A stretch of 64,000 bases of DNA from NCBI GenBank assembly GCA_028283765.1, contig JAPWJY010000008.1:496001-560000 (forward strand). Direction: 5' to 3'. Under the pieces are notes generated by a model. It did not search any database, was not told the DNA's origin, and saw only the letters and a list, made by a program, of their open reading frames with translations. Source of the stretch: Parvibaculaceae bacterium. GTDB taxonomy: Bacteria; Pseudomonadota; Alphaproteobacteria; Parvibaculales; Parvibaculaceae. A program made the position numbers and the translations under genes. Shown one piece after another: positions 29,447-63,333 of the stretch; position 1 is the stretch's first letter, and each line of letters starts with the position of its first letter.

Positions 29447-29518
29447 CGGCATCCGGCTTCCTCCGCGACGAGGTTGCCCTTTATTCTCGCTAAAACAGAA
29501 GAGAAGGGGAGGGCTTCC

Positions 29519-32202
29519 ATGAGTATCCGTAATCTCGACGCCATGTTCGCGCCAAAGTCGGTGGCGTTGATCGGGGGCAGCGCGCGGGAACATTCGGTGG
29601 GGAATGTGCTGTTCCTCAATCTGGCGAGCGCAGGCTTCAGGGGACCGGTCTGGGTGGTCAATCCCAGAGGCGGGCGGCTCGGCGCTTCCGATTCCTATCC
29701 CGATATCGCCAGCCTTCCCGATGCGCCGGACCTTGCCGTCATCGCCACCCCGGCGCAGACGATTCCCGGCATCATCGACGAACTGGGCAGGCGCGGCACC
29801 AAAGCCGCCATTATCATCACGGCGGGTTTCCGCGAGATGGGAGCGGAAGGGCGGGCGCTTCAGACCCGGCTGCTGGAAGCGGCGAAGCCTTATCTCATGC
29901 GCATCGTCGGCCCCAATTGTCTGGGCATCATGGTGCCGGGCGTCGGCCTCAACGCGGCCTTCACCCACATTGCGCCGCTGGCGGGCGACATCGCCTTCGT
30001 CTCCCAGTCCGGCGCCATCGTCACCGCCATCATCGACTGGGCGACGAGCCGCCAGATCGGCTTTTCCCATGTCGTCTCGCTCGGCACCATGGCAGACGTC
30101 GATTTTGGCGACATGCTGGACTATCTGGCGCAGGACACCAATACGCGCGGCATCCTGCTCTATATCGAGTCGATTCCCGATGCGCGCAAATTCATGTCGG
30201 CGGGACGGCAGGCCGCGCGCCTCAAGCCGGTGATCGTCATCAAGGCCGGGCGTCACCGGGAGGGGGCAAGAGCCGCCGCCTCCCACACCGGCGCCCTTGC
30301 CGGGTCCGATGCGGTCTTCCACGCGGCTTTCCGCCGCGCGGGCATGCTGCGCGTGTTCGGCATGGAGGAATTGTTCGACGCGACGGAAACCCTTTCCACG
30401 CGGCCGGAGCGCAAGCCCCTTGCGGGCGATCGTCTCGGCATCCTCACCAATGGCGGCGGCGTCGGCGTGCTCACCACCGATTTCCTGATCGACGCGGGCG
30501 CGCATCTGGCCGAACTGGCGGCGGAAACGGTCGCAAGGCTCGATGCTGTGCTGCCGCGCACATGGTCCCGCGATAATCCGGTCGACATCAGGGGGGACGC
30601 CACGGCGGAGCGCTATGCCCGCGCCATGGAGATATTGCTTCAGGATCCCAACACGGACGCCATCCTCGCCATGAATTGCCCGACGGCGGTGATCGATAAT
30701 GTCGAAGCGGCACAGGCCGTCATCGTCGCGGCGAAGAAATCCTCAAAACCGGTTTTCACCGCCTGGCTCGGCGATCAGGGCGCACACGCGGCCCGCCGGA
30801 TATTCCAGAACGAAAAAATTCCGACCTATGACGGGGGGTTGCAGGCCGTCCATGGCTTCATGCACCGCGTTCATTTCATGCGCAACCAGAAGCTGCTGAT
30901 GGAAATACCGCCGGCGGCCCCGGCCTGGCCCGAGAGCGACCGCGCGGTCGCGCGCGCCCTTGCTGAGCGTGCGCGCTGGCTGAAAATCGCGAGTGGCTGG
31001 ACGAGCCCGAAGCCAAGGCGGTGCTCAAGGCCTATGGCGTGCCGGTGGTCGAAACCCTGACGGCGCCGGACGTCGAGGCTGCCGTGGCGGCGGCGCGCCG
31101 GACCGGCTTTCCCGTCGTCCTCAAGATTCTCTCGGCGCAGATCGCCCACAAGACCGACGTGGGCGGCGTGGCGCTGGGGCTGGAGGACGAGGCGGCGGTG
31201 CGCGTGGCGGCGCAGGCCATGCTGAAAAAAGTGGCCGGGTTGCGCCCGGATGCGATTATCAGTGGTTTCACGGTGCAGCCGCTGGTCAACAGGCCCGGCG
31301 CGTTCGAGCTTATTCTTGGCCTTGTCGATGATCCGACCTTCGGGCCGGTCATCCTGTTCGGGCAGGGGGGATCGGCGGTGGAGATCATCGACGACAAGGC
31401 AATGGCGCTGCCGCCGCTCAACCGCAATCTGGCGGAGGATCTTATCCGGCAAACGCGGGTGTCGAGATTGCTGGAAGGCTATCGCGGACGGCCCGGCGCC
31501 AATTTCGATGCGATTGCCGGTGCGCTGCTGGCACTGGGCGATCTTGCCGCCGATCTGCCGGAGCTTGTCGAGCTTGAGATCAACCCGCTGCTGGCGGACC
31601 GAAAGGGCATCATCGCGCTCGATGCGCGCATCCGGGTCAGGCCTGCGAAGCTCACCAGCACGCGCCGCTTCGCCATCCGCCCCTATCCCCAGCGGCTTGA
31701 GGGCGAACTGAGCGACCGGAACGCGAAGACCTATCCCATGCGCCCGATCCGTCCCGAAGACGCTCCCCTGATCGACGACCTGCTGGCCAATACGGACCCG
31801 GAGGATCTGCGCATGCGCTTTCTGTCGCCCCTGCGCCGTCTGCCGCGCCAGCTCGCCGCCCGCCTGACGCAGATCGACTATGACCGGGAAATGGCCTTCG
31901 TGCTGTTTGCCGACGAGAGCCACAGCCATGCCGCCGCGGTCGGCCGCCTGTCGGAAGACCCGGATCGTATCCGGGCCGAATATGCCATTCTGGTGCGCTC
32001 GGACCATCAGGGCATCGGCCTTGGCTATGCGATGATGCAGCGCCTGATCGACTATGCCCGCGAGCGCGGCCTGAAGGAGATTTTCGGCCATGTGCTGCGC
32101 GAAAACCGGCACATGCTCGATCTTTGCGAAGCGCTGGGATTCGAGCGGCATGGCCTTGAAGGCGAGATGAGTGTGCTGGAAATGCGCCTCACGCTCGCGT
32201 GA
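29519..32202 (+). pseudogene. ADP-forming acyl-CoA synthetase fused to GNAT domain, frameshifted
   Basis: A fusion of an NDP-forming acetate/acyl-CoA ligase and a Gcn5-like acetyltransferase, the architecture of PatZ/Pka lysine acetyltransferases. The CoA-binding domain begins SVALIGGSAREHSVGNVLF; the phosphohistidine is near residue 257 in ASHTGALAGSDAVF. After EIPPAAPAWPESDR the frame breaks near 30976-30982; the next frame continues as ENREWLDEPEAKAVLKAYGVP, the ATP-grasp part (VVLKILSAQIAHKTDVGGV), and from about residue 738 the GNAT domain (RPIRPEDAPLIDDLL, SDHQGIGLGYAMMQRL). One missing base explains it. The repaired length is about 894 residues. The ATG at 29519 has GGGGAGGG upstream. 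It could acetylate metabolic enzymes or other proteins. Confidence 0.88.
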
Positions 32203-32222: not shown

Positions 32223-32684
32223 TCAGGCGGCGGCTGTCGCGTTTTCAATCTGGCGGGGCGTTGCCGCGCCGGTGTTGATCTCGATCTGGCGCGGCTTCAG
32301 CGCCTCGGGGATTTCCCGCACGAGATCGACATGGAGCAGACCATGTTCGATGGTCGCGTTCGTCACCCGCACATGATCGGCGAGCTTGAAGCGGCGCTCG
32401 AAGCTGCGGTTGGCGATGCCCTGATGGAGATATTTGCGTCCGGCCGGGGCTTCATGCTTGCCCGAGACGGTCAATTCGTTGGCTTTCGCCTCGATATTGA
32501 GTTCTTCGGGTTTGAAACCGGCGATCGCCATGCTGATGCGATAATCGTTCTCGCTGACCCGCTCGATATTATAGGGCGGATAGGCGGGCTGGGCCGAATC
32601 CTGCTTCACGCTGTCGAGCAGGCCGACAAGCTCGTCAAAGCCGATGGTGGAGCGGAAAAGCGGGGAAAAGTCGAAACTGGCCAT
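32223..32684 (-). CDS. Hsp20-family small heat shock protein
   Basis: A 153-residue IbpA/HspA-like small heat shock protein, an ATP-independent holdase that keeps unfolded proteins soluble. The N-terminus MASFDFSPLFRSTIGFDELVGLLDS matches the class A rhizobial type. The alpha-crystallin domain includes YRISMAIAGFKPEELNIEAKANELTVSGKH and RSFERRFKLADHVRVTNATIEHGLLHVDL, followed by the C-terminal R-Q-I-E-I motif (I-x-I/V-like). The start at 32684 has GGAGGA 7 nt upstream, which is locked in a ROSE-like hairpin. Expression is therefore likely heat-induced at translation. Confidence 0.94.
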   Translation of the reverse strand: MASFDFSPLFRSTIGFDELVGLLDSVKQDSAQPAYPPYNIERVSENDYRISMAIAGFKPEELNIEAKANELTVSGKHEAPAGRKYLHQGIANRSFERRFKLADHVRVTNATIEHGLLHVDLVREIPEALKPRQIEINTGAATPRQIENATAAA

Positions 32685-32688
32685 GGAA

Positions 32689-32758
32689 ACATCCTCCGTG
32701 AGCGATGTGGGTTGATCGGCGTCGAAGCTGCTGCCGGTCTCCCGTCGGGACTGACCGG
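32689..32758 (-). ncRNA. ROSE-like RNA thermometer in the hsp20 leader
   Basis: The minus-strand leader can form a start-proximal hairpin: ACAUC-G-CUC-ACG-GAG-GAUGU (32689-32708), with eight pairs and one bulged G, that hides the Shine-Dalgarno GGAGGA (32692-32697). The bulged G next to CUC opposite GAG is the core of ROSE thermometers (the U-x-G-C-U element). A second stem, CCGGTC/GACCGG with inner TCCC/GGGA (32734-32758), lies upstream, as in multi-hairpin ROSE leaders. Melting on heating would release the ribosome-binding site. Confidence 0.7.
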
Positions 32759-32963
32759 GATTTGCCGCTTCCACGCACTCGCGGACCCCTCATGGGCATC
32801 CGCATGAAGGAAATTTAGGATGGGTTCGCTTGCGTTCAAGAGCCGGGCGGGGGAGCGGGATTATTTCATGGCGTCGCACTCTGGCCCTCGCCGGGGCAAA
32901 GCCCTATCATGCTGGAAATCTCACGCGCCCACCGGTTTCCTGCCTTTTCTGTGAAAGCTTTCC

Positions 32964-44526: not shown

Positions 44527-44627
44527 GCGGCATCAGTTGAGACTTTCTCCTGACGCCGCAGCCCTTCCTGGGCGTTTCCTCCCTAAACTTGGGCCATGCC
44601 GGTAACACGGCATGGCCTCTTTCTTTT
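44527..44627 (+). ncRNA. Candidate trans-acting small RNA (suhB/MmgR-like)
   Basis: TTGCCT (44491-44496), a 17-bp spacer and CATATA (44514-44519) would start a transcript near 44527. About 55 nt in, a single-stranded-looking pyrimidine segment TTTCCTCCCTAAACTTG (44575-44591) precedes a perfect 10-bp hairpin GGCCATGCCG/CGGCATGGCC (44592-44617) and TCTTTCTTTT. A CCTCCC seed before a terminator stem is a feature of several alphaproteobacterial sRNAs that pair with Shine-Dalgarno sequences. I recall similarity to the suhB/MmgR family but cannot confirm it. Confidence 0.5.
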
Positions 44628-44628
44628 G
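44592..44628 (+). terminator. Intrinsic terminator of the sRNA candidate
   Basis: Perfect arms 44592-44601 and 44608-44617 with a GTAACA loop, then a T-rich tail (TCTTTCTTTT). It is not positioned after any protein-coding gene on this strand, which supports a separate RNA gene. Confidence 0.8.
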
Positions 44629-44659
44629 ATCAACGTTACCCGAGGCCGTTTGCGGCGCG

Positions 44660-62820: not shown

Positions 62821-63333
62821 ATGAAAGCGATCGAGTTGATGGTCGAGCGGATACTGCTCGCGAGCCGCTGGATACTGGTTGTTTTCTATCTGGGGCTGGC
62901 GGCCGCGCTCGGGCTCTATGCAGTCTCCTTCCTGTTCAAGTTCTGGAAGGTCGCCGGGGAACTGCTGGTGCTGGACGAGGCGGACATGATTCTCGCCATG
63001 CTCGGTCTGATCGACGCGGCGCTGGTCGCCAGCCTGATCGTGATGGTCATGATCTCGTCTTATGAAAATTTCATCGGCCAGTTTGACGAGGGAGCCGACG
63101 CCGAGCTGTCATGGCTCGGCAAGCTCGATGCGGGCGGGCTCAAGATCAAGGTCGCCTCATCCATCGTGGCGATTTCCTCGATCCACCTGCTCCAGATCTT
63201 CCTCAATGTGAACCAGTACGAGAACAGCAAGATCATGTGGATGACGATCATGCATATGGCCTTCGTGTTCTCGGCGGTGTTTCTGGCCGTGCTCGACCGG
63301 ATCATGGCGGGCGGAAAGCTGAAGGAAAAATAG
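62821..63333 (+). CDS. UPF0114 (YqhA-like) membrane protein
   Basis: A 170-residue inner-membrane protein with four helices: SRWILVVFYLGLAAALGLYAVSFLF, MILAMLGLIDAALVASLIVMVMI, IKVASSIVAISSIHLLQIFL and MTIMHMAFVFSAVFLAVLDRI. The motif SYENFIGQFD and the WLGKLDAGGLKIK region are the UPF0114/TIGR00645 hallmarks. The function is unknown; YqhA is linked to nothing specific. AAGGAT precedes the ATG. It is convergent with the Sua5 gene and their stops are nearly adjacent. Confidence 0.93.
   Translation: MKAIELMVERILLASRWILVVFYLGLAAALGLYAVSFLFKFWKVAGELLVLDEADMILAMLGLIDAALVASLIVMVMISSYENFIGQFDEGADAELSWLGKLDAGGLKIKVASSIVAISSIHLLQIFLNVNQYENSKIMWMTIMHMAFVFSAVFLAVLDRIMAGGKLKEK

Follow-up and report, generated by a model that had tools for sequence, protein, structure and literature searches.

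The hsp20 locus and the architecture of its leader

The window, the whole 64,000-nucleotide stretch of DNA analysed here, carries on its minus strand a gene for an IbpA-like small heat-shock protein preceded by a long structured leader (Table 1). The predicted product matches the profile PF00011 with 71.6 bits and NCBIfam IbpA with 163 bits, the latter value lying under the equivalog cut-off of 212. The chosen ATG is backed by orthologues, which begin with M..FDF, and a longer frame starting from a GTG at 32774 was dropped because the orthologues begin at the ATG.

Table 1. Coordinates of the hsp20 gene and of the elements assigned to its upstream region
Feature	Position	Strand	Sequence or basis
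RpoH-like promoter (predicted)	32840..32813	minus	CTTG-N17-CCTAAAT; sequence and relatives
Stem I, 5' stem-loop	32803..32781	minus	GCGGAU(G)CC...GGGUCCGC; RF00435 alignment and compensatory changes in relatives
Stem II, long GC-rich middle stem	32776..32719	minus	minimum-energy fold; CCGGUC..GACCGG at top
ROSE 3' hairpin	32708..32689	minus	ACAUC-G-CUC-ACG-GAG-GAUGU; ACAUCGCUCACGGAGGAUGU; pairs the Shine-Dalgarno region
Shine-Dalgarno GGAGGA	32697..32692	minus	sequence; 7 nt 5' of the ATG
hsp20 / IbpA-like small heat-shock protein gene	32684..32223	minus	153 aa, ATG start at 32684

Transcription is expected to start near 32806 (minus), as predicted from the RpoH-like promoter. A CTTGA(A/C) element occurs at the corresponding distance in most relatives of the family, and a sigma-70 scan found no promoter. 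With this putative start the leader comprises about 122 nt and three predicted stems.

ROSE elements are a well-known class of bacterial RNA thermometers, reportedly first described before Bradyrhizobium hspA, and their known thermosensing element is an anti-Shine-Dalgarno motif containing a bulged G. In the final hairpin of the hsp20 leader, ACATCGCTCACGGAGGATGT, ACAUC pairs with GAUGU and CUC with GAG around an ACG loop, leaving G 32703 as the single bulged base. The UCGCU motif at 32705..32701 faces GGAGGA, and the unpaired base is the motif's own G. The initial annotation had placed a ROSE-like thermometer at 32689-32758, with GGAGGA hidden in a start-proximal hairpin by a CUC:GAG pairing and a bulged G; the sequence confirms each of these elements. 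The GC-rich stem that it noted upstream is also present and corresponds to stem II, while stem I falls outside the proposed interval and had been missed. According to PMC4166951 and PMC10474464, a ROSE element has between two and four stem-loops and its 5' UTR measures 60 to >100 nt, a range that accommodates the predicted leader.

Conservation, covariation and predicted folding

We aligned 22 leaders, comprising this one and those of 21 hsp20 orthologues from the same family. CAUYGCU with its unpaired G and the AGG are invariant or nearly so, and the anti-Shine-Dalgarno motif with the bulged G falls exactly on the Shine-Dalgarno in all 22. The third loop-side pair of the hairpin occurs as U-G, U-A or C-G, and overall the hairpin is too invariant for much covariation. 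One pair of stem I has changed in a compensatory manner between A-U, G-U and G-C, and compensatory changes are likewise found in the relatives' counterpart of stem II, which is longer in this genus than elsewhere. Over the whole alignment four pairs have changed on both sides. An unguided RNAalifold run recovered the ROSE hairpin as well as stem I and a middle stem; of its 20 pairs, 8 had changed on both sides. For the ROSE hairpin 97.7% of cells are paired across the 22 leaders. The count for the aligned structure is 97.5%, compared with 33-53% for slid structures; this percentage is biased upward, since the structure used for counting was taken from the row of the window itself, and the compensatory changes carry more weight as evidence.

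Two relatives show a split ROSE core. In L009 (the last ~65 bases 5' of the hsp20 start at 1501, plus strand) and in L019 (1957-2024, minus strand), a stem-loop of ~30-35 nt is inserted between CAUUGCUU and AAGGAUG, enlarging the apical loop of the thermometer hairpin. In both, the predicted minimum-energy fold still contains the ROSE pairing, though shuffled versions of the L019 stretch fold just as well.

Folding predictions were made for a 129-nt leader, which is more stable than 200 of 200 shuffles (z -3.1). The isolated ROSE hairpin has a predicted energy of -5.9 kcal/mol at 37°C, and omitting the bulged G lowers it to -9.7. For transcripts starting from 32808 to 32803 and ending at the start codon, the predicted probability of the hairpin is 0.93-0.96 between 25 and 37°C. 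Extending the 5' end to 32810 or earlier lets an alternative predicted fold win, and adding ~25 nt of coding sequence reduces the hairpin probability to ~0.2-0.4. The predicted pairing of the Shine-Dalgarno falls slowly with temperature, from 0.81 at 30°C to 0.78 at 42°C, and the energy model alone therefore does not show a switch. It is conservation, and not the energy model, that settles the fold.

Relation to the ROSE family and distribution of the leader

At the gathering threshold Rfam reports nothing at the hsp20 leader. With permissive settings, the ROSE model RF00435 aligns all of its 94 positions at 32803..32678 on the right strand with 20.1 bits, compared with a gathering cut-off of 45 bits, and nothing else in the genome is matched by it at E<=10. 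Across 40 genomes of the order, no RF00435 match reaches the cut-off. Several of the best sub-cut-off matches are leaders of hsp20 orthologues (27.2 bits in the congener G001 and ~25-27 bits in G029, G011, G022 and G005), and hence this leader family is diverged from the Rfam model rather than absent. Since none of the 40 genomes passes even though the aligned relatives have the same leader, we read the failure to reach the cut-off as a limit of the library and not as the lack of a defining ROSE feature.

We searched further with covariance models built from the leaders themselves, whose E-values are rough while the gaps in bits are not. Model R2, constructed from 20 relatives with this genus left out, was run over the 3.24-Mb genome, and the hsp20 leader was the only significant match (30.2 bits, E 0.0018), followed by one of 19.2 bits. 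Within the window the next match reaches 14.4 bits, in agreement with the initial claim that no comparable leader occurs there. The bare core string recurs once in the window, at 62831 (minus), with no start codon shortly 3' of it. Among the matches to the core string in other parts of the genome, which were weighed as candidate thermometers, the one examined closely (L145) sits in a MarR-like frame on the opposite strand and is probably a chance occurrence. At the start of the genome's second hsp20 gene (L003, G000:C6:241393-241659), inspection by eye revealed no clear ROSE core.

Model R1, built from all 22 leaders, gave matches in 43 of 289 genomes of the class. Of the 26 top-scoring matches in other genomes, 25 are located at an hsp20 gene, in most cases with T(C/T)GCT...AGG directly 5' of the start codon. 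Three of the 26 belong to the same family, including G004, which was in the training set; the rest belong to other families. The model thus finds this leader upstream of hsp20 in many further families of Alphaproteobacteria.

Compared with the ROSE elements of RF00435, the leader shares the class of the downstream gene, the multi-stem organization, the 5' stem-loop, the full-length model alignment and the 3' hairpin in which U(U/C)GCU with a bulged G is set against the Shine-Dalgarno. It differs in its low score, in the sequence UCGCUC, which places a C-G pair before the bulge, in a loop of just 3 nt and in the longer middle stem of this genus. The ROSE-like thermometers of Pseudomonas ibpA (PMC3669281) likewise precede an IbpA-type gene, with a sigma-32 promoter upstream and the core motif (PMC11342760); those elements are called short (PMC3669281), in contrast to the three stems and about 122 nt predicted here. 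The ROSE-like thermometers that PMC11342760 describes upstream of ABC transporter genes have the same U(U/C)GCU and bulged G pairing the Shine-Dalgarno, but a different class of gene. The leader adds a member to the known ROSE family, missed by Rfam at threshold, and is not a new kind of element. It extends a textbook RNA thermometer, with no change of concept, to a lineage in which Rfam makes no call at its threshold, and the alignment and covariance model offer a basis for a better ROSE model. No relevant paper on ROSE thermometers of Parvibaculum turned up in the literature searched.

Proposed mechanism and alternative readings

From the observed anatomy, conservation, covariation and position before hsp20, we consider the leader to be a ROSE-family RNA thermometer in which heat would open the Shine-Dalgarno, with a probability of about 0.92. 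The original proposal of a ROSE-like thermometer at this gene is supported by the IbpA-like, PF00011-matching product, the U(U/C)GCU motif and bulged G against the Shine-Dalgarno, the several stems of the leader, a promoter resembling the RpoH class, and a leader that is strongly conserved upstream of the orthologues. In the proposed sequence of events, RpoH would transcribe an mRNA carrying the three-stem leader, and at growth temperature the 3' hairpin would pair GGAGGA with UCGCU(C), blocking ribosomes from starting. The bulged G would keep this hairpin marginal, such that it melts on heating; the Shine-Dalgarno would then open and Hsp20 would be synthesized, and upon cooling the hairpin would refold and synthesis would cease. 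The opening of the hairpin for ribosome entry is suggested by homology to ROSE elements, and we infer melting in the heat-shock range and translational control of hsp20, together with the transcript start. In a tested ROSE-like element, deletion of the corresponding bulged G lowers heat induction (PMC11342760).

The leader may, in addition to acting as a ROSE thermometer, be a site at which Hsp20 represses its own translation when unfolded protein is scarce, as E. coli IbpA does. Such a dual sensor, combining heat melting with binding of its own Hsp20 via arginine 93, is conceivable because this residue, essential for self-repression in E. coli IbpA, is conserved at position 93 of the present protein (GIANRSFER). 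Passages of PMC10474464 suggest that the activity reaches alphaproteobacterial IbpAs, but describe no alphaproteobacterial test. Arginine 93 is, however, widely conserved and may have other roles, and we found no report of IbpA-type autoregulation in alphaproteobacteria. We regard this extension, both as a whole and in its reliance on arginine 93, as tentative and rather doubtful.

Much less probable is a reading in which the conserved structure of this 5' UTR serves mRNA stability or constant low translation, with heat induction coming from RpoH only. The presence of the RpoH-like promoter and the shallow predicted melting would be in line with this explanation, but the known thermosensing element of ROSE, the conserved motif with its bulged G, lies exactly on the Shine-Dalgarno in every aligned leader. 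A chance hairpin, of the kind that GC-rich genomes readily form over Shine-Dalgarno sites and that the weak Rfam score might suggest, conflicts with the conservation seen between genera and between families, with the leave-genus-out model, with the alignment and with the covariation, and can practically be dismissed.

Two other features of the window were recorded on its plus strand. The frames at 29474-31060 and 31021-32202 overlap and apparently encode parts of a single acyl-CoA synthetase / ATP-grasp / GNAT acetyltransferase protein; this split points to a frameshift, or to an error in the sequence, around 30970-30990. At 44554-44632 there is a strong match (64.3 bits) to the suhB/mmgR small RNA family (RF00519).
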